From: Aurantiochytrium sp. KH105
Lineage: Eukaryota; Sar; Bigyra; Thraustochytrida; Thraustochytriidae
Assembly: GCA_003116975.1 (NCBI GenBank)
Contig: BGKB01000210.1
Location: forward strand, 62,001-126,000
DNA: 64,000 nucleotides
Direction: 5' to 3'
Positions 42,686 through 64,000 of the stretch are shown piece by piece; position 1 is the first letter of the stretch; the number at the start of each line of letters is the position of its first letter. A program made the translations under genes and the position numbers. The notes below the pieces were generated by a model. It worked only from the letters and a program-made list of their open reading frames with translations. It was not told the DNA's origin and searched no databases.

Positions 42686-43704
42686 TGCGCAGAAATAAAA
42701 GTTTTTTTGAAGAGGTTTTCTGCGAAGTGCTCTTGTCCGCGAGGTTTTCCAAGCACTACTGGAGGCGATTTAGTTGTTTGCTTTTTCGCGAGGTTTTACG
42801 CACGGTGTTCTTGACGCCTGTGTGCTTGCGTGCCGAGTCGAACCAAGCTCTCCTTTGACCTGCCTGCCTACCTGCCTGAGCCTGCCTCCCTGACCGCAAA
42901 ACGCGACACTTATATGAGCCAGAGTCCCGATGGCAACTTGAAGCTTCGTGATCATGGGTCACAATCCAGACACTTACCTTCGACCGCAACAACAACAACA
43001 ACAACAACAAGGAGGAGGAGGAGGAGGAGGAGGAGGAGCAAAGGGAAGAAGGAGCATCTGAGCTCGGGAAGAGTGCTGGGCTAGGCCACATAGTTGTCGG
43101 CATACCTCGGGTCTTGCCTCTTAATCTACCAACGGATAGTTCGAGATCGGTAAATCAGATTTGCCGAAGGACCCCTTGAATACAAGGAGAAAAAGAATGA
43201 TCGGAGTTACTGTTATTATTCCGAAGGCTCAACGGCTCTGCTTGGGCACCTGTTACTCGCGTGTGTGCAAAACTTTGGGTCCCTCTTTAGTTATTTGTTT
43301 GTTTGTTTGTTTGCCTTGCTCGCTCGCGTTCACCAAGGCCACACACGCACACTGACTGTTTTTATTGCTTATTTGCACCTTTACGCAAGGAGAGCGCAAG
43401 AGAGAGAGAGAGAGAGAGTCTGTGCGTACGATAGTTGGTTTACTTTGCTGTCTGGTCAAACCTCGACGCTCTCGACAAGGGCGTCAAGCTCGAGCTCGAG
43501 CTCGAGCAAGAGCTTGAGCTTTATTCGAAGCGCCTGAGGCGCAGCAGATTCGCCATTAAAGGAGTCCGGCGCATTCTGCGCAGCGAGCGCCGCAGCGACC
43601 GTCGCTTGCTTAAGCTCGAGTGCCACTGCTGATTCCACGACGTAAACTAAATTCACACATCGACCGGAGAAGGCCTCGTTTGCGTACGCGCGAGCACAGC
43701 CACG
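42686..43704. other. Divergent intergenic region, WW/IQ scaffold / dynein
   Basis: About 1 kb between two divergent starts, so it should hold both promoters. It has a CAA run followed by a GGA run at 42987-43038, a GTTT run near 43290-43310, a GA repeat at 43399-43418, and an AGCTCG-based inverted repeat at about 43485-43520. A minus-strand open frame at about 43456-43650 looks partly coding but has no start; see findings. Confidence 0.45.
42987..43038. repeat. CAA and GGA trinucleotide repeats
   Basis: Two abutting trinucleotide arrays, about eight CAA units then about nine GGA units. Confidence 0.85.
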
Positions 43705-46700: not shown

Positions 46701-49700
46701 TGCAGACATTGCAGAGAAGATCCGCAAGGCACAGGCCGATGCTGACCTCTTTAATAGTCGCGAAAATCTCTTCGAACAGGAGATGACCGATTACGAGCAG
46801 GTTACCGAAATTGCACGCGCTTTCCAGCCGTACGAAAGTCTGTGGCTGACTGTGAGCGAGTGGATCACAAACGAAGAAGTTTGGAGGACCGGCAAGTTTG
46901 CTGACCTTGTTCCAGAGGATATTGAAAAGCAGGTTACGGAGTCCTACAAGATCATGAATCGCAGCATCAAGTTCTTCCAAAAAGCAGAGCTCCCGCTCAT
47001 CAAGGAGACGGCAGAGACCATCAAAAGCAAAATTGAGGTCTTTCGTCCATACATGCCCATGATTACAGCTCTCCGCAACCCGGGTATGCGAGAGCGTCAT
47101 TTTGACGTTCTTTCGGAAGAACTTGGTTTCGAGGTGCGTGCCGACGAGAACTTCACCCTCGAGCAGGCGATCGGCCTCAATCTTCACGAGCATTCGGAAA
47201 CGATTTCCAAGGTTGCAGGTGTGGCCGCGAAAGAGTTCCAAATCGAGCAAGCGCTCGACAAAATGGAGCACGAGTGGGAAAACGTTTATCTCGACTGCAG
47301 ACCATACAAGGACACGGGAACCTTTGTTCTTGGTGGCATCGATGAAATCATGGCAATTCTTGATGAGCACATCACGATGACGCAGGCCATGCAGTTCTCG
47401 AGCTTCAAAGGTCCCTTTGTGGAGCGTATCGATGACTTTGATCGCAAGCTGCTCATGACTTCGGAAGTTCTCGAGGAGTGGATTGCCGTGCAGCGCAATT
47501 GGCTGTACCTGCAGCCTATTTTTGAGTCGCCCGATATCAACAAGCAACTTCCAGCAGAAGGCAAACGGTTTTCTAGTGTCGACAAGAACTGGCGCACGAC
47601 ACTGCTCCAGGCCTCGCAGCAAGCGAAGGCGTTAGAGTTTTGTCCAAACCCCAAGTTGCTCGCAATGTTTGCCGAAAGCAACAAACTGCTCGACATGGTA
47701 AGCAAAGGTCTTAGCGACTACCTTGAGACCAAGCGCGGAGGCTTCTCGCGCTTCTACTTTTTGTCGAACGACGAGCTCCTGGAAATTTTGTCAGAGACAA
47801 AGGACCCGCAAATGGTCCAGCCGCACTTGAAAAAGTGCTTTGAGGGTATTCGTTCCGTCTTTTTCAGCGAAGATATGCACATTACGGACATGAAGTCAAG
47901 CGAGGGCGAAGTTGTTCCTTTGGTGGTCCAGGTGGACCCGAACGGCAAAAATGTGGAAGTGTGGATGACCGAGCTCGAGGATCGCATGATGGACTCTGTC
48001 AAGGACGTCATGTGGTCGAGCATGCTCAGCTACGTGGAGACCCCGCGTACGGAGTGGCTGCAAATGGTGCCCGGACAGTGCGCATTGAACGCGTCGCAGT
48101 TCCACTGGACCCGCGAGATTGAAGAAGCCATGGACGCAGATGGCAACGCCGGCGTCGGGCGTTGCTACGAGCAGCAGGTTCGCCAGATCAATGACATGGT
48201 GGCTCTTGTGCGAGACCCAGAGCTCAAGTCGAACGCACGTATGACCATCTCGGCGCTTACTGTGATCGATGTGCATGCGCGTGATGTTACCGACAATCTC
48301 TTTCGAGAGGGAGTCAAAGACAAGACCGAATTTTCGTGGATTTCCCAGATGCGCTACTACTGGCTCAATGGCGAGGCCCTCGAGGGCGACATGCGCGTCA
48401 TGATGGTGTCCTCGCTACGTCCCTATGGCTACGAGTACCTAGGTAACTCCTTTCGTCTCGTCATTACGCCTCTCACCGACAAGTGTTATCTGACGCTCAT
48501 GGGTGCGCTGCAGATGAACCTGGGAGGTGCTCCTGCAGGCCCTGCAGGCACCGGAAAGACAGAGACCACCAAGGATCTTGCCAAGGCCCTTGCTAAGCAG
48601 TGTGTCGTCTTCAACTGCTCCGACGGTCTCGATTACCTAGCCATGGGTAAATTCTTCAAGGGTCTTGCAAGCTGTGGCGCCTGGGCCTGCTTCGATGAGT
48701 TCAATCGCATCGATGTCGAGGTGCTCTCTGTGGTTGCGCAACAGATTATGACCCTGCAGGCGGGAGTCACAGCGGGGCTCACTCGTATCGTTTTCGAAGG
48801 TGTCGAAATTAAGCTCAGCGACCAGTTCGCCGTGTACATTACCATGAATCCTGGTTATGCAGGTCGTACGGAGCTTCCTGATAACCTCAAGGCCCTTTTT
48901 CGCCCTGTGGCCATGATGGTTCCCGACTACGCTCTCATTGGTGAAATCATGCTTTACTCGTTTGGCTACGAAAAAGCACGTATTTGTGCCAAAAAAATGG
49001 TTGCGACCTTTCGTCTTAACTCCGAGCAGCTCTCCTCTCAGCCTCACTACGATTACGGCATGCGCGCCGTCAAGACAACCATTGTAGCAGCAGGGAACTT
49101 GCGACGAGACTACCCCAACGAGGATGAGGAGATTCTCCTTTTGCGTGCCCTTCAGGATGTCAACTTGCCCAAGTTCCTCAGCCACGACTTGCCGCTCTTT
49201 CGAGGCATTATTTCTGATCTTTTCCCAGGCAAGAGTCGCCCAGATATCGACTACGGAGCACTGTTGCAGTGCCTACGCGTGGCAAATCAAAATGCGGGTC
49301 TGCAGAACACACCTTGGTTTCTCACCAAGCAGATCCAGCTCTATGAAACCATTGTGGTGCGTCATGGTCTCATGCTCGTCGGACCGACGGGAGGTGGCAA
49401 GTCCCGCAACGTTGAGAACCTTGACACGGCTTTGGGCCTGCTCAAGAAGCGCGGCATCAAGGGCTTTGCATATGAAAAGATCCACCGGTACACGGTGAAC
49501 CCCAAGTCCATCACGATGGGACAGCTCTATGGTGAGTTTGATCCCAATACTCATGAGTGGCAGGACGGTATTCTCGCCAATATCGTCCGTATTTGCGCCA
49601 AGTCGACCACCCCGGACCGCAAGTGGGTCATGTTTGACGGTCCTGTCGATGCCATTTGGATTGAAAATATGAACACGGTGCTTGACGATAACAAGAAGCT

Positions 49701-52700
49701 CTGTCTCAACTCGGGCGAGATCATGGGACTTAGTCCAGAGATGACGATGATGTTCGAAGTTGAGGATCTCGAAGTGGCCTCCCCGGCAACCGTGAGCCGC
49801 GTGGGTGTCATCTACATGGAGCCCAATACGCTTGGCTCTGACCCAATCATCCAGAGCTGGATCGAGTATCGACTCCCAAGCATTGTCAAGAACGAGCACA
49901 AAGCTCTGCTGCAAAAGCTGTTCGATAATTTCCTTCAGAGCGCACTGACGCTTCTGCGTCGAAACCTCGCTGAGCCGGTGCCGACGGTGGACAACAATTT
50001 GCTGGCGAGCCTTTTGCGCATGATGGACGCGCTCTTCAATCTTCACATGAATAGCAGCGGTGGCAAGTCTCGCGAAGATGGAGACGGCGAAGGTGATGCG
50101 TCTTCTGGAGGACTCGACCTCGACAAGGATCTCGAGCCTCTTTTCATCTTTAGTTTGGTCTGGTCGCTGGCGTGCACGGTGGATTCGAGCGGTCGCCGAA
50201 CTTTTGATGGATGGCTTCGCAACCAAATGGAGCAGAACTCGACCCCTTGCCCTTTTCCTCGAGAAGGCCTCGTCTATGACTATGTGTGGGATGTTAAGGC
50301 CCATGCCTGGACAAAATGGATGGAAACGATCCCGCCGTACAAATACGATAAGGATCTCCCCTTTGCCGAAACCATTATTCCAACCTCGGACTCGGTGTGC
50401 TACACATTTCTGCTCGACATCCTCACGTGCACGAACCTGCACGTGCTTATGTGCGGTGACACGGGTACCGGCAAGTCTGTGAACATCAACCGCTACCTGA
50501 GCAACGGCATGCCCGCGGACTACATTCCTCTTTGTCTTGCGTTCTCGGCACAGACGAGCGCTAATCAGACGCAGGATCTTCTGGACTCGAAAATGGAGAA
50601 ACGCCGAAAGGGCGTTTTCGGTCCTCCGGCGGGAAAGCGCTTCGTCATCTTCGTCGACGATCTCAACATGCCCAAGCGCGAGACTTACTTTGCGCAGCCT
50701 CCGATCGAGATTCTTCGTCAGTGGTTCACGTATGGCGGCTGGTACGACCGCAAGGCGCTCACCTTTCGTCAAATTATCGATGTGAATATGGTGGCGGCCA
50801 TGGGTCCTCCCGGAGGTGGTCGCAATCCCGTCACCCCTCGCATGCTTCGGCACTACAATATTATCACTTACACGCCGCTCGAGCAAGAGAGTATGGCCAC
50901 AATCTTTGGCACGATTCTCGGCAACTTTCTTCGTGACTCCTTTGATGGCGCAGTGGCGCCCTTGGCCGACCCAATTGTCGACTCAACCATTCAAATTTAC
51001 GACCGCATTCGCTCCGAGCTGTTGCCTACCCCAAGCAAGTCGCACTATACCTTTAACATGCGCGACCTCAGTAAGGTCTTCCAGGGTATGCTCATGGTGT
51101 CCGCAAAAATTACCAACGGGGTCGACGCGGTCGTCCGACTGTGGGTTCATGAATGCCAGCGTGTCTTTCGTGATCGCCTCGTCAATGACGAGGACCGCGA
51201 TTGGTTCAATAACCTTGTCGTCACCAAGGTTGACAAGGACCTGAAGCTTGACTGGAACAAAATCAAGCCAGAGACAGAGTACATGATCTTTGGAGACCTT
51301 CTCGAGCCGGACAACAAGATCTACCAGGAGATTGTTGAGATTGACACGCTGCTGCCCGCGATCGAGCAATATTTGGTAGAGTACAATGCCGAGTCCAAAA
51401 CGCCGATGCACCTGCAGCTTTTCATGGATGCCATCCAGCACGTGAGCCGCATTGCACGTGTGATTCGCCAGCCCATGGGTAATGCTCTGCTTCTCGGTGT
51501 TGGTGGTAGCGGTCGCAAGTCGCTGACGAGACTCGCCGCCTATATCGGAGACTTTGCAGTCTTTCAAGTCGAAATCGCCAAAGGCTACGGACTCGCAGAA
51601 TGGCGCGAGGACATCAAGGCCTGCCTTCTCAAAGCAGGCGTGGATGATGTTCAGGTGGTCTTTCTTTTTGACGACTCGCAAATCATCATGTCACAAATGC
51701 TCGAAGACATCAATGGTATCCTGAATCAGGGTGATGTTCCTAACCTCTACGCGCCCGAGGACATGGAGAAGATCATGACTGCGTGCCGTGGTGACTGCGC
51801 CAAGCGAAAAATTGCGCCGACAAAGATCAACATCTTTTCTTCCTTCATTCTTCGCGTCAAGCGAAACGTGCACGTTGTGATGTGCATGAGCCCGGGAACA
51901 CCAATTTTCCGGGATCGTCTGCGCATGTTTCCAGCACTTGTCAATTGCTGCACGATCGACTGGTTTTCCGAGTGGCCCGATGAGGCGCTCCGAAGTGTTG
52001 GCTTGGGTATCATGCAGGTCGAGGATCTCCAGTTGGGAGATCATCTAGACAACGTTGTCGAGCTCTTCAAGGTATTTCATCAAAGCGTCGCCAACAAGTC
52101 CCGCGACTTTTTTGAGGAGCTTCGAAGGTACAACTACGTAACCCCGACGTCGTACCTGGAGCTCCTTACTACTTTCAAGAACCTTTTGCAGGTGAAACGC
52201 GATGAGGTGCAGCAGAAGAAGCAGCGTCTCCAAATCGGTCTCGATAAGCTCACGACCACAGCGGCGCAAGTTGCTGATCTGCAGGTCCAGCTCACGGACA
52301 TGCAACCTGTCCTCGCCAAGACACAGGTTGAAGTCGACGAAATGATTGTGCAAATCAAAAAGGATAAGGCTGCTGCGGACGAGACCAAGGCCATCGTATC
52401 CAAGGAGGAAGAAGCTGCTCAGGAAAAGGCACAGGCCACCAAGGCCATTGCCGACGATGCTCAGCGGGATCTCGACGAAGCTCTTCCGGCTCTTGACGAG
52501 GCCGTCAAGTGTCTGAGCAAGCTGAAAAAGGGTGATATTGTCGAGGTTGGCTCGCTCAAGACCCCTCCTTCCGGTGTCAAGCTGACAATGGAAGCCGCGT
52601 GCATCATGTTCGAGGTCAAGCCCAAGATGGTTGCGGATCCAGCAAACATGGGCAAGAAAGTCAAGGATTATTGGGAGCCTGCGCAAAAAACGCTGCTCAA

Positions 52701-55700
52701 TGATGCCAACAAGTTTCTGGAGCGACTCTTTAACTTTGACAAGGACAACATTCCAGACAAGGTAATTCGTGAAATCGAGGCCTACATGCAGAATCCTGAT
52801 TTTACACCCAAGGAAATCGAAAAGGCGAGTAAAGCATGTACCGCCATTTGCATGTGGGTCCGAGCCATGCACAAATATCACTTCATTGCCCTCGGCGTCG
52901 AGCCGAAGCGTAAGAAGCTCGCAGAGGCCGAGGCGGAGCTCAAGGTCACCATGGAAAAGCTCGACAAGGCTCGCTCCGAGCTGCAGGCAGTCATGGACAA
53001 CATTCAAGCTCTCGAAGACGGTTACAACCAGTCTGTGGCCAAGAAGGAGCAACTTGCGCGAGATGTCGAGCAGTGTAGCGCCCGCCTCGACCGCGCGCAA
53101 AAGCTCATTGGCGGCCTCGGCGGCGAGAAGGATCGCTGGACGTCTGCTGTGGCGCAATTCGAAACCGACTACGTAAATCTCTTGGGAGATGTGCTCATCT
53201 CGAGTGGTGCTATCGCCTACCTTGGACCTTTTACTAGCGTCTACCGTTCTGCACTCACCGATGTCTGGATTGAGGAGCTCATGCGTCTTAAGATTCCTCA
53301 TACCCCGGGCGTAGATATCATCAAGACGCTTGGTGAACCAGTGGTCATTCGTGGCTGGAACATCGCTGGACTTCCCGACGATGCACACTCTGTGCAGAAT
53401 GCAATCGTCATGGAGAAGGCCCGCCGATGGCCTCTGCTTATTGATCCTCAAACTCAGGCCAACCGTTTCATCAAGAATCTTGGCAAGGAGAGCGTCAATG
53501 GGATCGAGGTCGTCAAGCAAAGCGACAAGAACCTCATTCGCTGTCTCGAGAACGGTGTGCGCTTTGGAAAATGGGTTCTCATGGAAAATGTGGGTACAAA
53601 GCTGGATGCAGCCTTGGAGCCAGTGCTTCTGCAACAGACCTTTATTCAGGATGGCCAGGTTATGATGAAGCTCGGTGATAACACTGTGCCTTATCACGAA
53701 GAGTTTCGATTCTTTATGACTACCAAGCTCCCCAATCCGCACTACCCACCCGAAGTGGCGGTCAAGGTGAGCTTGCTGAACTTTAGCATCACGCCGCGAG
53801 GTCTCGAAGAGCAGTTACTTGGTATTGTTATGGTAAACGAGCTCCCTGAACTGGAGCAGCGCAAGAATGAAATTGTCGTGCAGAATGCTGAAATGGGCAA
53901 GAAGCTCAAGGAGATCGAGGATACTATTTTGTACATGCTCTCCAACTCGCAAGGAAATATTTTGGACGATGCTGAGCTCATCGAAACGCTTGCGACATCC
54001 AAGGTAACCTCGCAAGAAATCAACACCAAGGTCGCGGAATCCAAGGAGACGGAGAAGGAGATTGATGCAGAGCGTGAAAAGTACCGCCCCTTTGCAAAGC
54101 GAGGTTCCATTCTCTATTTTGCCATTGCCGACCTTTGCATCATTGATCCCATGTATGAGTACTCGCTTCAGTGGTACAGCCAGCTCTTTGCGCAGGGCAT
54201 CCTCAACAGCGAGCCAAAGAGTGATATCGAAGAGCGTCTCCAAGTTCTCAAGGACTTCTTCACCTACATGCTCTATGAGAATGTCTGTCGTAGTCTCTTT
54301 GAGAGGCACAAGCTGATGTTCTCCTTCAACCTCGTCATCAAGATTCTTCAGGGTGACGGACTCGTCGATAGTGCCGAGTACCGTAACCTGCTTACCGGAC
54401 AGGGATCGGGACGCGTCTCAGACCTCGCTAAGCCGCAGGGTGCAGAGTGGGTGACTGACAAGATGTGGGGTGACATCCAGAGCGTCTCGACGCTGCCGGC
54501 ATTACATGGTTTCGAGGACTCTTTCGTCGAGCACGTTGCCGACTGGAACCTGTTTTTTGACTCTGAAACATGTTTTGAAGACCCGCTTCCCGGTGGCTGG
54601 GACGACCGCGTGAACGAGCTGCAGCGCATGCTCATCTTGCGCGCGATCCGCCCCGACAAAATCTCGAACTCGGTACAGAACTACATTGTCAACAGGTTTG
54701 GACAGCGTTTCATCGAGCCGCCTCCCTTTGAGATCAAAAAGTGCTTTGACACGTCCGTGGTTACAACGCCCTTGATCTTCGTGCTCACCAGTGGTAGTGA
54801 TCCGACCAAGTCATACTTTGAGTTCGCAGAGACGATGGGAATGGCGGACAAGCTCAAGAGCATTTCGCTTGGCCAAGGTCAAGGACCCATTGCGGCCCGA
54901 ATGATCGAGGAGGGCATTTCCAAGGGCATGTGGATCCTTCTCCAGAACTGCCATCTTGCAAGTTCCTGGATGGACGAGCTTGAGCGCATCGTCGAAGAGA
55001 TCAAGCCAGAGACCACGAATCCAGAATTCCGCCTGTGGCTGACGTCGATGCCTTCCAAGACCTTTCCTGTATCCGTCTTGCAGGATGGTATCAAGATGAC
55101 CATGGAGCCTCCCAATGGAATGCGTGCCAATCTTCGCGGTGTCTACTTCAAATTTGACGACGATCAGCTCAAGGCTACCACCAAGCCTGGTGTATATATG
55201 CGCCTCCTGTTTGGACTTTGCTTCTTTCATGCACTCATTCAAGAACGACGCAAGTTTGGCCCGCTTGGATGGAACGTCCCCTACGAGTTTAACGAGACTG
55301 ATCTGGAAATCTCGCAGCGTCAGTTGGAAATGTACCTGGACGAATACGAAGAAATTCCATTCGAGTGTTTGAAGTTTCTCACGGCGCGCATTAATTACGG
55401 TGGCCGTGTAACAGACGCCATTGACATTCGCACCATGGATGTCCTCCTGGAGCAATTCTACCAGCCGGACGCGCTCAATGATGGCTTCAAATTCTGTCCG
55501 CGCGAGGAGTACTTTTCACCAGCGGTCGACGAGGACAATCCCATTCGTGGATACCGTACATACATTGAAGGTCTTCCGGTCAACGCGCCACCGGAAGTCT
55601 TCGGAATGAACACAAACGCCAACATCACGTCGGCCCTGCAAGAAACAAATGAGATGCTTGACACCTTGGTGCTGCTTCAGCCCCGCACAAGCTCCGGCGG

Positions 55701-56550
55701 TGGAGCCTCGCGCGAGGACATCATCGAACAGGACATCATCGACTTTCAGCAGCGCTTCCCCCGTCATTTCTCCATTGAAGCCATTCGTATGGACTACCCT
55801 GTCCGATACGAGGAATCAATGAACACGGTGCTGCAGCAAGAGTGCGCCCGTTTCGAGCGTCTGCTCAGCGTCATCGAATCCACGCTCATCGATTTGCGAA
55901 AGGCGCTGCGCGGACTCATGGTCATGTCTGGTGAGCTCGAAGCCATGAGCAACGCCATGTATGCTCAAAAGACGCCCGAGCTCTGGGAGTCTGCCTCTTA
56001 TCCGAGTCTCATGCCTCTGCGAAGCTACTTTGCCGACTTTGTGAAGCGCTGCAATTTCTTGCAAGACTGGATTCGCGATGGCATGCCCACCACGTACTGG
56101 CTGTCTGCTTACTTTTTCCCTCAGGCCTTTCTCACGGGTCAGCTGCAGAACTATGCGCGAAAGCACCAGCTACCTATCGACACAATCTCCTTCGAGTTTG
56201 ATGTCGTGCCCGAATCCGAAACGCACGAATCTCCAGAAGATGGTTGCTATGTGCACGGTCTCTACCTCGAAGGCGCACGCTGGAGCTTTGACGAGTTCTC
56301 CGTGGTAGACTCCCTCCCCAAGCAGCTCTTTGCCGACATGGCACCCATTCACTTTGTTCCAATTCACGGAAAATCGGACAAGGAAGAAGGGTACAAGACA
56401 CCACTTTACAAAACATTACGTCGCGCAGGTACGCTTTCGACGACGGGTCACTCTACCAATTTCGTCATGTACTTGCAACTCCCATCGAATGTGGAATCTG
56501 CAAAGTGGATCAAGGCAGGTGTCGCCCTGTTCTGCGCTCTCAAGTACTAA
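43705..56550 (+). CDS. Axonemal dynein heavy chain, inner-arm single-headed type
   Basis: A 4281-residue AAA+ motor in a single 12.8 kb frame. It drives sliding of outer-doublet microtubules in the flagellum. Order: N-terminal tail (about 1-1300), linker with S-N-D-E-L-L-E-I-L-S-E-T-K-D-P, then the AAA ring. P-loops are G-P-A-G-T-G-K-T at about 1612 (AAA1, followed by C-F-D-E-F-N-R-I), G-P-T-G-G-G-K-S at about 1892 (AAA2), G-D-T-G-T-G-K-S at about 2250 (AAA3) and G-V-G-G-S-G-R-K-S at about 2597 (AAA4). The stalk coiled coils with the microtubule-binding tip span about 2832-3146. The C-terminal region holds G-L-Y-L-E-G-A-R-W. The linker wording and overall length resemble the DNAH3/7/12 inner-arm group more than outer-arm chains; the subtype is tentative. 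Two Asp/Glu-rich insertions, near residues 570-610 and 765-795, are unusual. ATG 43705 opens a Gly/Ser/Arg-rich tail. Confidence 0.96.
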   Translation: MRPSYGGSGGGGNTTPRSPERRQPQGRSSSPRKRSQKQQLHQDQLKGAAEATSPIKGLRKQINSNVRHDHAGAGVFSAYIYNLQDDELASDSRDSGSDKGSSQQSWHRGASRETKIATEHSEEKESIPNGAAAVAQAALNSIVWEEASVASALRACHVWPTGESSLDPGSASMLPLSAYYDKLSDPIVPDSINFPVSGASVLARPEDTEWEDARVESYDAETDRYVVETCTDGDNRCVQVPRVRLYFPSEPVEDFVRRYVSAYFRREQAHLLIRYNLYVDCMPAQVGAALSEAQLQRIVNYALGSSRGTAKDAKARMDVASMLREVQTRFARTLNKIDFDLKMNRSTREALQKDSLEELPGVLRAVERVGAAPEQGCLPVPSYDAEACYNDLVARSFFADAAALEALDSVHQLCQRLGTEEFRLFRVSPEPQSLSLREFEELQRGQIDTVAVLLTDDWTQAAKTAIKSSMGRDPARWDLESKDRAAYEASELRRFFRNVNLRMTDALHDSVVESIEKYGRFIEEATQYRAEIVSSAEIHVDFLSASANSQTKPLFRVDLVEEVRLPRPKAAVAADAENGDDGDGEDADEDDEDEEAGGADDDEGTMKAFFGYSEDPQAFVEKARNFVRLGLRAVQGVPQVQRLAMDRLYWGEIPEIATVTEDDPLVEKTESLISTSLENSFGELGAYLDQLDRFLPILRLDVDSFMAELEEPFRAAEERLQRKIEREERRAEQQRLKEEKEQAFKEEVAKLRAEGNETEAAAMEAKKAEEDEEDEDEDDDDDDDDDDDAEAPTLDTDQIAKYISDHIREKDRVELLIPEAANIGLFEINCSKLRRALSEKHASVVSRLLDFVSRCTIGQCNNLLSRFSDMNQELSKFPQNIEELVEIRNYMGTIPNKLAEVYEEIAKLWKGYDLLDKYEYRLGSKVFGQKWRLFGGTKMILDKVEVTTEMLDKEQVRYANIQKEKQEDFLVHLDKLSKEVASFSQFSDLRRIKSIAQSAADIAEKIRKAQADADLFNSRENLFEQEMTDYEQVTEIARAFQPYESLWLTVSEWITNEEVWRTGKFADLVPEDIEKQVTESYKIMNRSIKFFQKAELPLIKETAETIKSKIEVFRPYMPMITALRNPGMRERHFDVLSEELGFEVRADENFTLEQAIGLNLHEHSETISKVAGVAAKEFQIEQALDKMEHEWENVYLDCRPYKDTGTFVLGGIDEIMAILDEHITMTQAMQFSSFKGPFVERIDDFDRKLLMTSEVLEEWIAVQRNWLYLQPIFESPDINKQLPAEGKRFSSVDKNWRTTLLQASQQAKALEFCPNPKLLAMFAESNKLLDMVSKGLSDYLETKRGGFSRFYFLSNDELLEILSETKDPQMVQPHLKKCFEGIRSVFFSEDMHITDMKSSEGEVVPLVVQVDPNGKNVEVWMTELEDRMMDSVKDVMWSSMLSYVETPRTEWLQMVPGQCALNASQFHWTREIEEAMDADGNAGVGRCYEQQVRQINDMVALVRDPELKSNARMTISALTVIDVHARDVTDNLFREGVKDKTEFSWISQMRYYWLNGEALEGDMRVMMVSSLRPYGYEYLGNSFRLVITPLTDKCYLTLMGALQMNLGGAPAGPAGTGKTETTKDLAKALAKQCVVFNCSDGLDYLAMGKFFKGLASCGAWACFDEFNRIDVEVLSVVAQQIMTLQAGVTAGLTRIVFEGVEIKLSDQFAVYITMNPGYAGRTELPDNLKALFRPVAMMVPDYALIGEIMLYSFGYEKARICAKKMVATFRLNSEQLSSQPHYDYGMRAVKTTIVAAGNLRRDYPNEDEEILLLRALQDVNLPKFLSHDLPLFRGIISDLFPGKSRPDIDYGALLQCLRVANQNAGLQNTPWFLTKQIQLYETIVVRHGLMLVGPTGGGKSRNVENLDTALGLLKKRGIKGFAYEKIHRYTVNPKSITMGQLYGEFDPNTHEWQDGILANIVRICAKSTTPDRKWVMFDGPVDAIWIENMNTVLDDNKKLCLNSGEIMGLSPEMTMMFEVEDLEVASPATVSRVGVIYMEPNTLGSDPIIQSWIEYRLPSIVKNEHKALLQKLFDNFLQSALTLLRRNLAEPVPTVDNNLLASLLRMMDALFNLHMNSSGGKSREDGDGEGDASSGGLDLDKDLEPLFIFSLVWSLACTVDSSGRRTFDGWLRNQMEQNSTPCPFPREGLVYDYVWDVKAHAWTKWMETIPPYKYDKDLPFAETIIPTSDSVCYTFLLDILTCTNLHVLMCGDTGTGKSVNINRYLSNGMPADYIPLCLAFSAQTSANQTQDLLDSKMEKRRKGVFGPPAGKRFVIFVDDLNMPKRETYFAQPPIEILRQWFTYGGWYDRKALTFRQIIDVNMVAAMGPPGGGRNPVTPRMLRHYNIITYTPLEQESMATIFGTILGNFLRDSFDGAVAPLADPIVDSTIQIYDRIRSELLPTPSKSHYTFNMRDLSKVFQGMLMVSAKITNGVDAVVRLWVHECQRVFRDRLVNDEDRDWFNNLVVTKVDKDLKLDWNKIKPETEYMIFGDLLEPDNKIYQEIVEIDTLLPAIEQYLVEYNAESKTPMHLQLFMDAIQHVSRIARVIRQPMGNALLLGVGGSGRKSLTRLAAYIGDFAVFQVEIAKGYGLAEWREDIKACLLKAGVDDVQVVFLFDDSQIIMSQMLEDINGILNQGDVPNLYAPEDMEKIMTACRGDCAKRKIAPTKINIFSSFILRVKRNVHVVMCMSPGTPIFRDRLRMFPALVNCCTIDWFSEWPDEALRSVGLGIMQVEDLQLGDHLDNVVELFKVFHQSVANKSRDFFEELRRYNYVTPTSYLELLTTFKNLLQVKRDEVQQKKQRLQIGLDKLTTTAAQVADLQVQLTDMQPVLAKTQVEVDEMIVQIKKDKAAADETKAIVSKEEEAAQEKAQATKAIADDAQRDLDEALPALDEAVKCLSKLKKGDIVEVGSLKTPPSGVKLTMEAACIMFEVKPKMVADPANMGKKVKDYWEPAQKTLLNDANKFLERLFNFDKDNIPDKVIREIEAYMQNPDFTPKEIEKASKACTAICMWVRAMHKYHFIALGVEPKRKKLAEAEAELKVTMEKLDKARSELQAVMDNIQALEDGYNQSVAKKEQLARDVEQCSARLDRAQKLIGGLGGEKDRWTSAVAQFETDYVNLLGDVLISSGAIAYLGPFTSVYRSALTDVWIEELMRLKIPHTPGVDIIKTLGEPVVIRGWNIAGLPDDAHSVQNAIVMEKARRWPLLIDPQTQANRFIKNLGKESVNGIEVVKQSDKNLIRCLENGVRFGKWVLMENVGTKLDAALEPVLLQQTFIQDGQVMMKLGDNTVPYHEEFRFFMTTKLPNPHYPPEVAVKVSLLNFSITPRGLEEQLLGIVMVNELPELEQRKNEIVVQNAEMGKKLKEIEDTILYMLSNSQGNILDDAELIETLATSKVTSQEINTKVAESKETEKEIDAEREKYRPFAKRGSILYFAIADLCIIDPMYEYSLQWYSQLFAQGILNSEPKSDIEERLQVLKDFFTYMLYENVCRSLFERHKLMFSFNLVIKILQGDGLVDSAEYRNLLTGQGSGRVSDLAKPQGAEWVTDKMWGDIQSVSTLPALHGFEDSFVEHVADWNLFFDSETCFEDPLPGGWDDRVNELQRMLILRAIRPDKISNSVQNYIVNRFGQRFIEPPPFEIKKCFDTSVVTTPLIFVLTSGSDPTKSYFEFAETMGMADKLKSISLGQGQGPIAARMIEEGISKGMWILLQNCHLASSWMDELERIVEEIKPETTNPEFRLWLTSMPSKTFPVSVLQDGIKMTMEPPNGMRANLRGVYFKFDDDQLKATTKPGVYMRLLFGLCFFHALIQERRKFGPLGWNVPYEFNETDLEISQRQLEMYLDEYEEIPFECLKFLTARINYGGRVTDAIDIRTMDVLLEQFYQPDALNDGFKFCPREEYFSPAVDEDNPIRGYRTYIEGLPVNAPPEVFGMNTNANITSALQETNEMLDTLVLLQPRTSSGGGASREDIIEQDIIDFQQRFPRHFSIEAIRMDYPVRYEESMNTVLQQECARFERLLSVIESTLIDLRKALRGLMVMSGELEAMSNAMYAQKTPELWESASYPSLMPLRSYFADFVKRCNFLQDWIRDGMPTTYWLSAYFFPQAFLTGQLQNYARKHQLPIDTISFEFDVVPESETHESPEDGCYVHGLYLEGARWSFDEFSVVDSLPKQLFADMAPIHFVPIHGKSDKEEGYKTPLYKTLRRAGTLSTTGHSTNFVMYLQLPSNVESAKWIKAGVALFCALKY

Positions 56551-56612: not shown

Positions 56613-59600
56613 TCAACTCTTCCTAGCAAGACTTGCAGTGAGCACCCGCTGTAGCTCAGCACGTCCAATATCCTCGCCATCCTCGCTGATGAGCCCAAAA
56701 ATCTCGTTCGCGACCTTGGCCAGGTCATTCGGTCGCATATGCGGGCAAAGCTTCCCAAGGGCCTTTCGTAGCGCAGACTGTGATACGCGTCCAGTCCCAG
56801 AGCGATCAAGAGCGCGAAGAACGCGTGAGGCATCAAGCGTACCACCGCCTTTTCGCGCTGTGTCTCGAAGAGCGCGTTTAACAGACTCCAGGTTGGGCTT
56901 GAGGGTTTGAGGAACGGGAAAAACCCAGCGCTGAAGCGTACCAAAGTCAAGACCTTGCCCAGGGGCTGCCGCTTTCTCGAACGTGTGCGCTCGTCCGCCG
57001 CAGATATCTAGCATGAGTGCCTGCGCGCTCCAAGGATTCTCTTGCACCCCGAGATGGCCGAGATCACTACAGACATCGATCAAGTCTTGCATACGTACTC
57101 GTCCCTTCCTTCCACGATCCAGCGCACGAAAAGCACGTCTCATATTTTCTGAAGGCCCGGCGAGTTCTTGAAGATGCGCACGCAGTGTCCTGGCTACCAC
57201 CTTGGTATCGTGCAAGGCTTGAGGATCCGTGTCCGCGTCGACCTCTAGTGCAAGTCCAACAGTGTTGTTCGCGAGAATGCTCTGACGAAAATCGTCCCAG
57301 TGCCAGTCATTTCCCTTGTCGCCGGTGTGAAATTCAAGAAGCCTCAAGAGGACCTCTGCATCTGCGTCGCTGATATCAAGGCCGAGATGACCTCGAATTG
57401 CCGTTTGCAAGTCAAGATGTGCAAAGGAAGCTCGTTTTGCCTCCTCGGACTCCGCGTCGATGCCCTCTCGACTGCTTTTGCGCACTGCGCCGCGCAATTT
57501 GATGACCAACGCAGCGACAGTGCCAGAGGAAGATGCGTTTTCAGCGTTTTCGCCCTTTGCCATTTGCATGGGAGGGTTTGAGGCAGTCTGGGCCTGTGTC
57601 AGTAGTCCGCAAAGTACCACAAGATTTACGTCGTCGCCGAGCCGATCGCAGAGCGCGAGGTCAACGGCGGCCTCCAGCTGCCAGGCCGGCGCGAGAACTC
57701 CGACTTGTCGCAATACACGAAGGGCTTCCGGTCGACTCATCCGCGATCGGTCCCCAGTTTCGTCAGACTCGACTTGTCTTCCAACGTAGCGTTGCATTGT
57801 CTCCAAAAGACTGGACGCGCGTGGATTCTTGGCATGAAACTGGCGAGAAATGACCGCAGTGTCCAAAAAGGCCATGAGGAAATCTGCATACTGTACTTCG
57901 CCGATGTCATTTTGAGGCGAATGCTCGTAGAGTACTTGGAGCTCTTGATCGTGGAGTTTGCAACCGCTGTCGAGCAGCACGGCTTCAAAGGAGGCCTGAT
58001 CAACATAGGCGCTTCGATTCTGGGCAAGCGTCCTGAACGCCTGATAGAGATTTCTGCTTGCGCCTCGAACCTTGCGCATGGCCATGCGAAGCAGCGCATC
58101 GCGCCCACTTTGAGCGCTCATGGTGCCGGGCTTCCCGCTGGTGAAAGCGTCAAGCTCCGCGAAGGAAACCATGCCCGAGCCGTTTGCGTCGAGACGGTTT
58201 ACAAACTGATGAACTTGTCTTGTAGAAAGCTCGACATTTATAGACCGCAGTAGAACTGCGAGCTCCTTTGCTGTAAACGCGTTCTGGTGCGTGGTTGCGA
58301 ACCGCTTCAAGCGTTGGCTTAGGGACGGACCCACGCGTAAGTGCGCCAATTTTCGTCGAACATCCTCGAGAGTTTGCGCACTAAGCTCCTCGTGCTTTCG
58401 CGCGCCTTTGGAGAGGGCACTTTTGTTCTTTGACGCAGGCGCCTTGTGAGGCGTGTGCAGGGCAAAGTGCTGAAAGGTAGGAAAGTCGATCGTTCCCGAG
58501 GCGTTCGGGTCGAGGCGCTTCATTAGAGCAGCTTCCGCACTTGCGGACAGGTGGAAGCCCACACGACGTAAGCTAGAAGCAAAAGCCCGAGACGTAACAA
58601 AGCCAGCACGCGTCTTGTCAAAGGCCTGAAACGCAACGTAGAGATCGCGCTTGCCATCCCCAAGGTCTGCAAGCTTCAAAATAAGTCGCTGTACTCTTTC
58701 TACTGCAAGCTCGACCTCTGCATTCATTTTTTGCGCATCCCGGAGAGGCGAGCTCGGGGTTCCGTGAGCAAATTCATTGAGTTCTTGTTGGCAGACGAGT
58801 CCGTCCGCATTTTGGTCAATCAGTTCCATTACATCATTCTTCTCTGCCTCAGAAAGCGGAACAGTTGCTCGCTTGTCAACAAGGCGGTGAAACTCGCGTC
58901 GGCTCACAGCATCATGGCCAAATGCTTCTTCGAGATCGAGATCGGCAAGGTCCTTGCGTAAACGGTCTTCGAGTATGGCTCTGCGGCGAGGCGAGGACTG
59001 AATGTCTTCGTCAAGCGCGTCGACGAGCTCCAGAAAGTCGGTATATCTGAGGCCTCGGTTGTCTTTTGCGCGCCGTTCCAGTCCCTCGAGGAGAGAACGC
59101 TGCTCGCTCCGCGTGAGGTCCTTTTCTATCCCACAAGAAAGCAAAAGTTGGCGAAGTTCTCGGCGGTCAACCTTGCCATCGCGATTACGGTCCAGGTTGT
59201 CAAACGCAAGACGAAAGTCGATCACGTTTGAGGCGCTCTGCTGGGCGTCGCGCATGATCGCGCTGCGAATTTTTTCTTTGGCCCGCGCGAGTCGTTCTAT
59301 CTTTGAGTCGCTGCAAACAGAACTAAGTTCGCTAAGCGCGTCCTCAGTTTCTTTGCTAAAAGCTCTACGCGAAGCTCTGCTCCGCGTCCCATCTCGTACA
59401 AAAGCTCGACCCTCGTCAAGGCAGTCAATACTCGACGTACTACTTGCAATGCTATTGTCATCTGATGACCAGTATAGCTGAGCGGCAGCACGACGCGAAG
59501 CGCGCCCCTTGCACCTAGCTGCATCAGAACTGGCAAGGGATGCCTCGTCGTCCGAGTCGCTCTCAAACAGAGAACCGAAAGACTTTGCACCCCGGCGGTG

Positions 59601-62600
59601 GTTCGCTCCCCACTCCTTGGATCTTTCGGCGAGCATACGCTTTGCTGAGCTATGGGACGGCGAAAGTGTTGTGGTCAGATGCACGTCAAGGCCTTCGTCA
59701 TGACGAAGGCCGGCAATTGGCCGAACCGAGTCAAGAAACTCGAGGTAGCGAACCTGTCCGTCCCCGTCGCGATCAAACTTTTTTACAATGTCGTCCAGGT
59801 CTGATTCCGACAGGAAGTCCGCAAGACGTGTCTCAAGCGCGCGTCGAAATGAGCTTGCAGAAACAACGAAAAGATTGGCCGTTTCCTTTTCTTCGTCTTC
59901 GGAGCCTTTGAGATTCTCAAGCGCTCGCGCGAGACCCGACAGCACACGTGGTTCGCGAAGGGCAGCCCGCAGACGATCGCCAAGTGTGCTGGTCTCGTAA
60001 AGTCTGGTGTCGTCAAGACCTCCGCGCATAGTAGTAGCTTGATTCTGCGCTGCCTGAGCACGAAGACGACGAGCAAGCCCACTTGAAGCCACGCGCTCTA
60101 CTCGCTTCGTGCTTGCTTCAGGAATACGAGCAGCGAGAGTCTCATCGACAGGTGGGGCAAAACCCGTTTCCGCACACTGCTCCCACAAATGCGTTTCGAG
60201 GTCCCGATTACGCTTCATTGAAAGTGTATAGCTATGCTTAAGGTCTTCGAGCTCGTCAAAGAATCCGTTGTCGAGACCTGCAAGCTCCTCCTTTAAAAGA
60301 CGAAACTCCTCATTGATGTGGTCAGTTGGATAAACCAATGCATCCCGGGGTTCTTCTTTGCTTCGTGTCCCCGTATCATCAGCATTGAGCAAGCCGCACT
60401 TTGAGTTTTTGCTGTATGACCCCATACGGTGATCTACTCGGCTGTATAGCCAGTGTATGAGCTCGAGATAATCCACAAAGTCACCACGCCGCTGACGTCT
60501 ACGCTTCTTTGCAGGAGCACGAAACATGGTTATGAGGCGTTGCACGGAATTCTTTTCTCTTGCGCTGGTTTGCGCCGACGTAGACACCACGCCAAGTGTC
60601 TGCATTGCTCGGCGAAAGTCCTCGATCGAAAGGACCCCGCAGTCGCCCTTGTCGAGGAGCTTGAAGACCTGAGTTACGGCTTTGCGATGAACGAAACCAT
60701 TTTTTTGGCAGCTCGAAAGCATCTCCTGTCGCAGCTTGTCGTCGTCTTCAGAGCCGTGGAGGAGCATCTCGAGGGCCGGGGCATACTCAACGTATGCAAT
60801 ATTCTTTTCCTCAATGACGCATGACTGTACAAGTCCGGAAAGCTTCCAAGACGAGCATGCAAAGTGATTGGTGAGATCCAGAGCGCCATCAAGGACGTTG
60901 TAGAATCTATCGAGAGGGATGCAGGCTCTCGGGAACGCCTTTGTCTTTTGCCTCGTAGATCGTTTCCGATGTTTGCGACCACTGGCTTTTGTCTGGTCGT
61001 CCTCGATTCTTGCGCATCGACGCACAAGTGCTCGCGCCGTGACATTCAGCTCACACGCATGCTGCGCAAGCTGTACGGGTGTCAATGCCCCCTTCAAAGT
61101 AGTCGGCGGCGCACTCGCTCCTTTGTGCGAGTTCTCTGGAATGACCATTAAAAGACGCATAAGATCTGCATAGGAAATAGAGCCGGGTGTACCGAGTTGA
61201 GCAGCGAGACGTTCGGTGAGCATCGTGATCTGCTTTCGTGTCGCTGGCACACGCAGATTTTCCAAAAGATTGCAAAACTGCGATGTCGAGATAAAACCAT
61301 TGCCATCCTGGTCATGCGAGAAAAAGAGGCGCCTCAGCTTCCAAGAATCGACACCAAGCAAGAGCTTCCGTAGATCGTCTTCATGCAATGTTGCAAAGAG
61401 CTGATTGTCCTCATTTTCCTGCGCGACAGATGACGGATGTAAAATCGCACGAATTGCAGCATCGATTTCGATCGAGCCGTGGCCATTGGTGTCGAGCTTT
61501 TGCGCAAGAGCTTCGCGCTCCTCAAGCGTGCTAGGAAACGCCTTGAAGGCAAGCACAAGCTGTTCACGCGAGAGAAAGCCGCAGTCAGTCGTGTCGAAGC
61601 GGACAAGATGCTTCCGAAGCTTAGCACTGGTCCACCCTCTTTTTCGAATGGCGCGCGCCATCGCGCTCGCATCTTTCGAACGGCCAATTACTTTTTTCTT
61701 GGGCGAGTTTCTCGAACGACGGCGTGAGCGATCTGGTTCTCGCTTGGACCTTTTCTGTGAATCAGAAGAAAGTGACGCGTCTGATGAGCTTGTTGATGCA
61801 TCAGAGACGAGTCCGTCAGCTGAAGCATTGGCGGCAATTTTTCCGTACATGAGGACCTCTTGAAAGTCATTGAACTTAAGAACACCATCATTGCTCCCGT
61901 CAAAACGCTCAAAAAGAGGACTGATAACGCGAGTCTTTAGGCGGAGAAAGTGGGACAAGTCCTTTCGGCAGATCGATCCTCGCTGGTCGCTGTCGATTGC
62001 ACGAAAAAGAGCGCGGCTGTCGCGGGCATATTTGCTTTCAAAGAGCTTGTATAGGTTACGCGCAATCCGCTTTGGACTTGATCCCGTTCCTGCAGCTTCC
62101 TCCCCCAGCTCATCATCGTCCACATCGCTATGGCGTCTGTCCTTGTCGCTCGAGTGTGTATTTCTTTTTCCACCACGTCCGACAGCCCGCGCGAGGGCTT
62201 CGACCCTCACTCGGTCATTTATAGTTAGAAGACTGCGCTGCTGAAGAAGGTCTCGCAGGACCTCTTTCGAAGGAAGGATCGCGCCATCCTCTTGCAGAAC
62301 CTCAACGAAAGAGGCAAAGTCGACGTCGTTCCCTCGCTCCGCGGTGCGGACAATGAGATCCTCCAAAGTTTCTGCACAACGCGAGAGCTGAGCAAGAAAG
62401 TCCGCCCAGACCACTCCATTTTCAGCGAAGCACGCCTCTAAAAGACCCATTGTGTCAACCTTGCCATTTTCATTGAGGTCCATTGCCTTAAAAAGTCTCA
62501 TGGCTTCGCGACGCGACGCTGAGGCGTCGAGAAGATCATCAAGGGCTGCACGAAACTCGTCGTGAGTGATGAACGTTTTGTGCTGAGCAACTTTGCGGAG

Positions 62601-63212
62601 AATGTGCCGGGCTTCCACGCGTCCGACCTTGCGCATGTCCTCTGCGAGTGAAAGTTCTCGACCTTGAACTGCAATGGGGGCTATATCTTTTAGCATCGCC
62701 TCGTAGTCAACGTGACCGTCAATAGTATCGATGTACTTGCTTGCAAAGCGCGCGACATGCGACAGGTTACTGACAAGCCCGAGATCCTCGCAGATGATGC
62801 GTTTGACGACATTTGCGGGCAGCACTCCCCGAGAAAGAGGGTCTGCTTCGGCAAGGAGGGCCTCGAACTGATCTCGGTGTTTGGCAAGGGCTTTTTTGAT
62901 CTTTTGTTGCGCATGTGCGCGCGCTCGGGCGCGCTGCGGCGAGGACTCTTCGTCCGAAGACCATACTTTTAGCTGTTTGCGGACGACGTTTGCCGCCGTG
63001 TTACCGAGGTCCCGATCGAGGCGGTTGTTCTCATTGTGCAGCCACTGTCGGGTGCGCTCTAGTTCATGCTGAGCCACCTTGGCCTTGAGCTGTTCCACGT
63101 CGCTCTTGTACTTGCGACGCAGCTCGCTGACGGGCCGATCGTGGGGCAGAACCATCGTCGTTGCAACTTGGCGCGTTCTCCAGTTGCTTACCTTTGCTTC
63201 GCTGACGTCCAT
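56613..63212 (-). CDS. Giant multi-EF-hand protein, EFCAB6-like
   Basis: A 2199-residue protein in one frame from ATG 63210-63212. EF-hand-like 12-residue loops recur along its length; I count about sixteen. Several have full canonical ligands: D-L-N-E-N-G-K-V-D, D-T-N-G-H-G-S-I-E, D-Q-D-G-N-G-F-I-S, D-R-D-G-D-G-Q-V-R, D-R-N-R-D-G-K-V-D, D-Q-N-A-D-G-L-V-C, D-P-N-A-S-G-T-I-D and D-A-N-G-S-G-M-V-S. Others have lost ligands (for example D-T-T-D-C-G-F-L-S and D-K-T-R-A-G-F-V-T). Basic, Ser-rich linkers and short helices join them. The layout resembles EFCAB6 and related axonemal calcium-binding proteins, though it is longer than the ~1500-residue human protein. It faces the dynein gene with 62 bp between stops and shares a 290 bp upstream region with the Chibby gene, supporting a flagellar role (inference). 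Confidence 0.82.
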   Translation of the reverse strand: MDVSEAKVSNWRTRQVATTMVLPHDRPVSELRRKYKSDVEQLKAKVAQHELERTRQWLHNENNRLDRDLGNTAANVVRKQLKVWSSDEESSPQRARARAHAQQKIKKALAKHRDQFEALLAEADPLSRGVLPANVVKRIICEDLGLVSNLSHVARFASKYIDTIDGHVDYEAMLKDIAPIAVQGRELSLAEDMRKVGRVEARHILRKVAQHKTFITHDEFRAALDDLLDASASRREAMRLFKAMDLNENGKVDTMGLLEACFAENGVVWADFLAQLSRCAETLEDLIVRTAERGNDVDFASFVEVLQEDGAILPSKEVLRDLLQQRSLLTINDRVRVEALARAVGRGGKRNTHSSDKDRRHSDVDDDELGEEAAGTGSSPKRIARNLYKLFESKYARDSRALFRAIDSDQRGSICRKDLSHFLRLKTRVISPLFERFDGSNDGVLKFNDFQEVLMYGKIAANASADGLVSDASTSSSDASLSSDSQKRSKREPDRSRRRSRNSPKKKVIGRSKDASAMARAIRKRGWTSAKLRKHLVRFDTTDCGFLSREQLVLAFKAFPSTLEEREALAQKLDTNGHGSIEIDAAIRAILHPSSVAQENEDNQLFATLHEDDLRKLLLGVDSWKLRRLFFSHDQDGNGFISTSQFCNLLENLRVPATRKQITMLTERLAAQLGTPGSISYADLMRLLMVIPENSHKGASAPPTTLKGALTPVQLAQHACELNVTARALVRRCARIEDDQTKASGRKHRKRSTRQKTKAFPRACIPLDRFYNVLDGALDLTNHFACSSWKLSGLVQSCVIEEKNIAYVEYAPALEMLLHGSEDDDKLRQEMLSSCQKNGFVHRKAVTQVFKLLDKGDCGVLSIEDFRRAMQTLGVVSTSAQTSAREKNSVQRLITMFRAPAKKRRRQRRGDFVDYLELIHWLYSRVDHRMGSYSKNSKCGLLNADDTGTRSKEEPRDALVYPTDHINEEFRLLKEELAGLDNGFFDELEDLKHSYTLSMKRNRDLETHLWEQCAETGFAPPVDETLAARIPEASTKRVERVASSGLARRLRAQAAQNQATTMRGGLDDTRLYETSTLGDRLRAALREPRVLSGLARALENLKGSEDEEKETANLFVVSASSFRRALETRLADFLSESDLDDIVKKFDRDGDGQVRYLEFLDSVRPIAGLRHDEGLDVHLTTTLSPSHSSAKRMLAERSKEWGANHRRGAKSFGSLFESDSDDEASLASSDAARCKGRASRRAAAQLYWSSDDNSIASSTSSIDCLDEGRAFVRDGTRSRASRRAFSKETEDALSELSSVCSDSKIERLARAKEKIRSAIMRDAQQSASNVIDFRLAFDNLDRNRDGKVDRRELRQLLLSCGIEKDLTRSEQRSLLEGLERRAKDNRGLRYTDFLELVDALDEDIQSSPRRRAILEDRLRKDLADLDLEEAFGHDAVSRREFHRLVDKRATVPLSEAEKNDVMELIDQNADGLVCQQELNEFAHGTPSSPLRDAQKMNAEVELAVERVQRLILKLADLGDGKRDLYVAFQAFDKTRAGFVTSRAFASSLRRVGFHLSASAEAALMKRLDPNASGTIDFPTFQHFALHTPHKAPASKNKSALSKGARKHEELSAQTLEDVRRKLAHLRVGPSLSQRLKRFATTHQNAFTAKELAVLLRSINVELSTRQVHQFVNRLDANGSGMVSFAELDAFTSGKPGTMSAQSGRDALLRMAMRKVRGASRNLYQAFRTLAQNRSAYVDQASFEAVLLDSGCKLHDQELQVLYEHSPQNDIGEVQYADFLMAFLDTAVISRQFHAKNPRASSLLETMQRYVGRQVESDETGDRSRMSRPEALRVLRQVGVLAPAWQLEAAVDLALCDRLGDDVNLVVLCGLLTQAQTASNPPMQMAKGENAENASSSGTVAALVIKLRGAVRKSSREGIDAESEEAKRASFAHLDLQTAIRGHLGLDISDADAEVLLRLLEFHTGDKGNDWHWDDFRQSILANNTVGLALEVDADTDPQALHDTKVVARTLRAHLQELAGPSENMRRAFRALDRGRKGRVRMQDLIDVCSDLGHLGVQENPWSAQALMLDICGGRAHTFEKAAAPGQGLDFGTLQRWVFPVPQTLKPNLESVKRALRDTARKGGGTLDASRVLRALDRSGTGRVSQSALRKALGKLCPHMRPNDLAKVANEIFGLISEDGEDIGRAELQRVLTASLARKS

Positions 63213-63502
63213 AAGAGAGAGAGAGCAGCCTCGTGCGACGAGACCAGAAGCGTGCGTGTTTCGCGCAGCCCACCTCGATTAGCGCTAGAAGGTAGCTTAG
63301 CTAGGCTAGACCTAGTCCGTCGTAAGGCACCGCCTCGGCATGGGTCCCTCATTCCCAGCCACTGTCTGAAAGTAGAAAGCCGTTAGACCCTTTAATTAGA
63401 CCGCGAGCTTTACCAGAGGGCCCGGAAGGAAGTGAATGATGAAATGAAGGATGGGCTGGCAGACGCTGAAGAAACAAGAAGAGGAGGGACCGTGCGAGCA
63501 CG
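63213..63502. promoter_or_regulatory. Shared upstream region of the EF-hand and Chibby genes
   Basis: 290 bp between two divergent start codons, so it is likely a bidirectional promoter. It holds a GA run next to the EF-hand start and a CTAG-rich stretch near 63290-63315. I looked for an RFX X-box-like pair of half sites, expected for co-regulated cilium genes, and saw none clear enough to call. Confidence 0.5.
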
Positions 63503-63998
63503 ATGTCGAAGTTTGTCAAACGAAGGCTGTCGTGGGGATCCACGAAGAGTGGTGCCTCGAACGGGTCGAGACCTCCAGTTCCCGAAAGCGAATGCACGCT
63601 CAATCTTGACGGTAACAAACTCAGTCTTGACAAAGAGGGACGATGGCGGCTTGGTACGTTTGTTTGAAAAAGGTGAAGTGCTAAAGGGGTTAAGGATTAC
63701 AATTTTGGGAATTGAAATACATGTGATGATCTGACGGAGTTGTTTCTCGCTCAAGACCCTGGGACAATCGGCAATTATGAGGCTGAGATTGATAGGCTTC
63801 ATCAATACATTGAACAACTTGAAAACGAGAAGCGCATTTTGCGCGACCGCTGTGCGCAGAGCAATGGCGAAAAGGAGATGCTTTCCTTCCAGAACGAACT
63901 ATTGATGGACTTGGTACGTGGCCAGAGACAGTTCATCACCTTTCGAAGAGGCTGTTGACTTTATCGAGAAGAGAAAACGCTTTGTGCGAGAGGACTAA
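63503..63998 (+). CDS. Chibby-family basal-body protein, three exons
   Basis: Read as exons 63503-63653, 63756-63913 and 63969-63998, giving about 112 residues (human Chibby is 126). Intron 1 runs 63654-63755: donor GTACGT, CTGAC branch-like site at 63731-63735, pyrimidine-rich acceptor ending CTCAAG. It joins in phase 1. Intron 2 starts with the same GTACGT at 63914 and ends at TCGAG (63968) after a TTGAC. Without it the protein would end at 63956-63958 with a different tail of about 15 residues. The match to Chibby lies in L-N-L-D-G-N-K-L-S-L-D-K-E-G-R-W just before a leucine-zipper coiled coil (I-D-R-L-H-Q-Y-I-E-Q-L-E-N-E-K) ending N-E-L-L-M-D-L, plus a short basic tail K-R-K-R. Chibby acts at the distal appendages of basal bodies in cilium assembly. 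An upstream in-frame TGA at 63467 fixes the start. Confidence 0.68.
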
Positions 63999-64000
63999 CT

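Follow-up and report, generated by a model that had tools for sequence, protein, structure and literature searches.

Genomic Context

The window, i.e., the whole stretch of 64,000 nucleotides analyzed here, corresponds to bases 62001-126000 of contig C210 in a genome of 76 Mb and 367 contigs. Its G+C content is 56%, and it contains long frames without introns. Thirteen of the 22 long frames were run against Pfam, four of which returned no family; a kinesin is among the frames with a match. Close to the end of the window begins a putative three-exon gene, referred to here as the Chibby-like gene (Table 1). It is divergent from the gene of a large EF-hand protein, with the two first ATGs separated by 290 bases, and beyond the latter lies an axonemal dynein heavy chain, for which the best solved relatives carry the labels DHC2 and dynein axonemal heavy chain 1. 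A dual-specificity phosphatase is encoded downstream of the Chibby-like gene, outside the window. The preliminary description of this DNA had spoken of flagellar neighbors, and the axonemal dynein heavy chain bears this out. Elsewhere in the window (9302-10033), a segment matches polycystin-type cation channels (PKD_channel); channels of this type are often ciliary. A scan for bacterial promoters and terminators upstream of the Chibby-like gene, which is inapplicable to a eukaryote, returned nothing.

Table 1. Features of the locus and of the putative partner genes. Coordinates without a contig are those of the window; substitutions are between the two copies of the locus.
Feature	Coordinates	Strand	Substitutions	Remarks
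Axonemal dynein heavy chain	43651..56547	+		One uninterrupted frame of 4299 residues
EF-hand protein	56616..63212	-		Single frame of ~2200 residues; EF-hand accounts for most of the 12 families listed
Exon 1	63503..63653	+	0/151	Residues 1-50 and base 1 of codon 51 (translation)
Intron 1	63654..63755	+	9/102	102 bases; GTACGT donor, internal CTGAC, CTCAAG acceptor
Exon 2	63756..63913	+	1/158	Bases 2-3 of codon 51 through codon 103; the single change is at a third codon position and synonymous
Intron 2	63914..64056 (63914..64000 within the window)	+	15/143	143 bases
ACTAAC	63994..63999	+		Possible branch site of intron 2; same motif in the second copy
Exon 3	64057-64152 in extended numbering (G000:C210:126057-126152; L005:4057-4152)	+	0/96	Beyond the window
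FAM92/CIBAR BAR-domain protein	C134:31174-31704 (L007); C128:53786-54313 (L008)			Profile search
DZIP1 N-domain	C54:71464-71817 (L010) and five further places			Over the cut-off

Exon–Intron Structure of the Chibby-Like Gene

The frame opened by the ATG at 63503, when joined from 63653 to 63756, translates into 103 residues that comprise a basic N-terminus, the segment TLNLDGNKLSLDKEGRW, and a leucine coil ending in LLMDL. By translation, exon 1 encodes the basic N-terminus and the strand/hairpin motif, while exon 2 encodes the coiled coil, in which Leu 65, 72, 79, 93, and 100, with Ser at 86, keep a single heptad register up to the LLMDL end. The join across intron 1 preserves the frame, and the Pfam match discussed below spans the junction. 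Exon 3 comes after TGTGTCCCAG, and the protein ends in ...KWELGKWLTPT. The three-exon model thus gives a protein of 134 residues that has no basic tail, since its last 20 residues (KEALRTEALKWELGKWLTPT) include four basic and three acidic ones. The gene is presumably transcribed and spliced.

The start codon, the donor, the acceptor end at 63755, and the CTGAC of intron 1 are all present as first described, and the divergence of exons and introns agrees with them. The ACTAAC motif in intron 2 resembles a branch site and may act as such. The splice signals proposed for the Chibby-like gene fit those of the genome, as judged from the intron of a B9-domain gene that also occurs in two copies. Its donors read CTTG/GTACGT in one copy and CTTG/GTAAGT in the other, and both copies carry GAACTAACTCAC within the intron as well as a CTAAC motif.

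In the list of open reading frames, those containing the sense pieces are 65 and 80 residues long, with an antisense frame of 162 residues (63410-63898) overlapping the pieces; the earlier statement that no open frame exceeds about 70 residues was therefore inaccurate.

Exon Test with the Second Copy of the Locus

The locus is present a second time in the genome (L006, C114:210693 onward), with DNA that is 94% identical across 9 kb. The exons differ at 1 of 405 bases and the introns at 24 of 245 (Fisher p = 5e-10), and the 134-residue protein is identical from both copies. The longest identical runs in the same 9 kb (307 and 217 bases) both lie in neighboring genes, so that identity alone would not pick out exons, whereas the sharp alternation between exons and introns does. 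Judged by this alternation, exons 1 and 2 and the intron between them are real. The 307-base run (L005:5506-5812) is located in the downstream dual-specificity phosphatase gene and includes part of an apparent intron.

Pairing extends to other genes, as the best matches in the B9, DZIP1, FAM92, and EF-1A searches are also paired at near-equal score. The paired copies look like two haplotypes, two subgenomes, or a hybrid; the inter-copy sequence comparison covers the Chibby-like locus and one B9 intron.

The same comparison bears on where the gene ends. The preliminary description proposed a protein of ~112 residues with a basic tail, ending within the window. It gave no coordinates for the third exon, which was probably 63969-63998, as KRKRFVRED followed by TAA yields exactly 112 residues. 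This exon differs between the copies at 5 of 30 bases, compared with 1 of 405 for the supported exons, and its first codon is TAG in the second copy. A related third exon starting at 63951 (63951-63998, 118 residues) differs at 6 of 48 bases and contains TAG in the second copy. The 111-residue version (63972-63998) has no stop in that copy, but still differs at 4 of 27 bases, with two residues altered. In terms of the family profile, the 118- and 134-residue models score equally (21.8 bits), such that the Pfam score cannot tell the exon 3 choices apart. The in-window models further imply a second intron of 55-58 bases versus the 102 of intron 1, and their stop TAA (63996-63998) falls within ACTAAC. 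All three starts (63951, 63969, and 63972) were dropped because of the high divergence between copies and the TAG in two of them, and a gene ending within the window is very improbable. Exon 3 as placed in Table 1 is the supported one, and given the end of the protein that it encodes, the “basic tail” is intron sequence and does not belong to the Chibby-like protein.

The 162-residue antisense frame is open and longer than either sense piece, and could thus be proposed as the real gene. However, in the second copy it is interrupted by a stop codon and differs at several amino acids, with the differences clustered at the intron of the sense model. As a gene common to both copies it is refuted, and as an explanation of the locus it has practically no standing.

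Probable Assignment to the Chibby Family

The best Pfam family for the 134-residue protein is Chibby (PF14645), with E = 2.1e-4 and 21.8 bits over residues 31-115, corresponding to positions 42-111 of the 114 in the profile. This score is 3 bits under the curated Pfam cut-off of 24.8, and the claim is therefore limited to that of a divergent homologue, the cut-off itself reflecting curation and not biology. The significant full-length profile match envisaged in the preliminary description was consequently obtained only in part. Human CBY1 scores 153.9 bits in the Pfam control.

The coil half of the protein also matches other families weakly, namely TMF_TATA_bd (E = 0.0097), Tho2 (0.036), and Sf6_terminase (0.054), with Chibby ahead of the next family by a factor of ~46 in E-value. 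None of four full shuffles and one reversed copy matched Chibby. Shuffling the N-terminal 51 residues (one version) lowered the Chibby score to 8.9 bits, whereas shuffling the coil with its hydrophobic pattern kept (one version) still left 18.1 bits. The match thus appears to rest mainly on the hairpin half with its conserved Trp and not on a generic coiled coil, contrary to a concern raised when the gene was first described.

A PF14645 profile search run directly on the genome found nothing; given that introns interrupt the gene and that even the complete protein stays under the cut-off, this is not read as absence. Among solved structures, the best match to the 134-residue protein has only E = 0.29, and human CBY1 itself returns none at E up to 0.001.

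Comparison with CBY1 and Other Chibby Proteins

For all comparisons, a hand-entered sequence of human CBY1 was used. BLASTP against it gives 21.6 bits with E = 0.002 (single comparison) and 18 of 70 residues identical. Local alignment gives a score of 78, a value that none of 2000 plain shuffles and none of 2000 shuffles keeping the hydrophobic pattern attained (means of 31 and 36). When the halves are aligned separately, the score of the N-terminal half was reached in 219 of 5000 shuffles and that of the C-terminal half in 111 of 5000.

The Chibby-like protein resembles CBY1 in its small size, its basic N-terminus, its T-x-N-L-x-G-x-x-L...G-x-W hairpin segment (present as TLNLDGNKLSLDKEGRW, with the motif as in human CBY1), and its leucine-heptad coil terminating in an LLxxL cluster. 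The heptad leucines of CBY1 are L77, L84, L91, and L98 according to the available text of PMC12269497. The layout originally described therefore holds for the basic N-terminus, the T-L-N-L-D-G-x-x-L...G-x-W strand, and the leucine coil with its LLMDL, leaving out the basic tail.

There are also several differences. The Chibby-like protein has 134 residues versus 126 in human CBY1, its coil is about two heptads longer (hand alignment), and its hairpin has one residue more. In an AlphaFold-based model, the FAM92-binding cage of Chibby1 is formed by Pro43, Phe54, and Trp59 around a Met of FAM92A (PMC8983713, available text). In the Chibby-like protein, the Trp of this cage is kept and Phe54 aligns with Leu; Pro43 aligns with Cys by ungapped extension, while the global alignment has a gap there. 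Finally, a basic tail is present in CBY1 and absent here. The basic C-terminal tail of CBY1 is a nuclear import signal, and it is regarded here as belonging to the nuclear function rather than as defining the family. CBY3, a testis-specific Chibby paralogue, has N-terminal similarity and the coil in common with CBY1 (PMC12269497, available text).

The resemblance to Chibby could alternatively have arisen by convergence in the hairpin and the leucine zipper, in a short coiled-coil protein that is specific to this lineage and perhaps belongs to the basal body. Such an origin would be in line with the score below the Pfam cut-off, the weak matches of the coil half to unrelated families, the two of three cage residues that differ, and the marginal score of each half alone against CBY1. 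It accords poorly with the ~46-fold lead of Chibby in E-value, the dependence of the score on the N-terminal half (18.1 versus 8.9 bits, one shuffle each), and the silence of the shuffled and reversed controls, and both the order of the parts and the partner genes in the genome agree with Chibby. Convergence is accordingly an improbable explanation, and the gene likely encodes a divergent homologue, i.e., a relative, of Chibby.

Putative Partner Genes and Search for Wnt Components

In animals, Chibby works with FAM92 and DZIP1, and profile searches of the genome returned candidates for both. FAM92 has two loci over the cut-off (29.1 and 27.7 bits versus 23.6) and one weak match below it; the two best solved relatives of this protein are CBY1-interacting BAR domain-containing protein 1, with E about 1e-5 (best 9e-6). 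The DZIP1 N-domain has eight matches, six of which exceed the cut-off and form three pairs by score (best 103.6 bits versus 27.9). All 12 B9 matches are over the cut-off, with four of them being halves of apparently two copies of one split gene. The CEP290 CC5 family had no match in the genome profile search, which is a weak test as intron-split genes can escape it.

A search limited to the Wnt ligand found no match in the genome; it is likewise weak, because introns split genes. Six DIX-domain matches, all marked as over the cut-off (e.g., C137:176499-176735), coexist with the lack of a Wnt ligand match. The 14 control genomes are prokaryotes, and their silence is uninformative for eukaryotic families. 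The matches to several eukaryotic families show that such searches do succeed here, although intron-split genes can still be missed, as was the case for PF14645.

Homologues of all three proteins of the DZIP1-CBY-FAM92 transition-zone module of Drosophila and mammals thus occur in one genome. DZIP1 is called evolutionarily conserved in Holozoans in a figure legend of PMC7793253 (available text), whereas the putative module is encoded here in a genome with an EF-1A that is missing the insertion of its yeast and mammalian counterparts.

Placement of the Organism

The EF-1A of the genome (L014) aligns over its length to yeast and mammalian EF-1A, from both of which it differs by the absence of a 12-residue stretch. 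This 12-residue insertion is a marker of opisthokonts, i.e., animals, fungi, and their kin. An EF-1A without the insertion, together with an axonemal dynein and B9 proteins, points to a host that is probably a non-opisthokont flagellate, neither animal nor fungus. Frames that are long and free of introns, along with the G+C content of the window, may hint at a thraustochytrid.

Proposed Function

By homology with the animal proteins, the transition zone is the probable site at which the Chibby-like protein acts together with FAM92 and DZIP1. Its coiled coil would form a dimer, and the basic N-terminus, together with the small strand/hairpin domain, would bind FAM92/CIBAR, keeping this BAR protein on curved membrane. 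DZIP1 would fix the Chibby-FAM92 pair at the distal basal body, such that the three proteins jointly would attach the basal body to the membrane and start the flagellar transition zone. The dimer, the binding, the cell location, and the role are all proposed on the basis of homology with the animal proteins.

Several studies describe the corresponding steps in animals. CBY1 uses its N-terminal region to bind the BAR domain of FAM92A, with an affinity that increases more than tenfold upon coil-mediated dimerization (PMC12269497, available text). In flies, the N-terminus of CEP290 recruits DZIP1, which in turn recruits CBY and Rab8 (PMC7793253, available text), and Cby together with Fam92 helps to anchor the CEP290 N-terminus at the membrane (PMC10914257, available text). 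A simple transfer of the animal mechanism is weakened by the cage, of which only the Trp is kept, and by the hairpin, which is one residue longer. Taken as a whole, including this proposed working at the basal body, the reading of the locus as a three-exon gene for a divergent Chibby-family protein of 134 residues in a flagellated, probably non-opisthokont protist is held with considerable confidence.

Evolutionary Implications

Chibby came to light as an antagonist of Wnt; the fly and mammalian proteins belong to the basal body and transition zone. The public family databases probably already hold some non-animal Chibby entries. In the available text of the literature on Chibby/CBY1, a selection consisting mostly of open-access titles, no protist Chibby was seen. 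Specifically, the available text of PMC2375033, PMC2959043, PMC5374602, PMC6904220, PMC7793253, PMC7833213, PMC8983713, PMC10914257, PMC11500687, PMC12269497, and PMC12383261 contains no Chibby outside animals. Three small exons that fall under the usual open-frame thresholds, combined with a score just below the cut-off, mean that such homologues are easily missed in the annotation of protist genomes.

The preliminary description had argued for an ancestral role at the cilium without Wnt signaling. The ancestral part gains support from FAM92, DZIP1, and the non-opisthokont EF-1A, while independence from Wnt is plausible for the Chibby-like protein. The findings suggest a role for Chibby at the ciliary base that predates animals. 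On balance, and with less assurance than for the gene itself, the whole DZIP1-Chibby-FAM92 membrane module seems to predate opisthokonts and to work without Wnt in this flagellate, with the beta-catenin role being a later animal addition. The interest lies in the presence of the complete module outside opisthokonts rather than in the Chibby-like gene alone. If true, the co-occurrence of Chibby, FAM92, and DZIP1 in such an organism would be an argument for the priority of the membrane-docking module, and would provide a single-celled test case for it.
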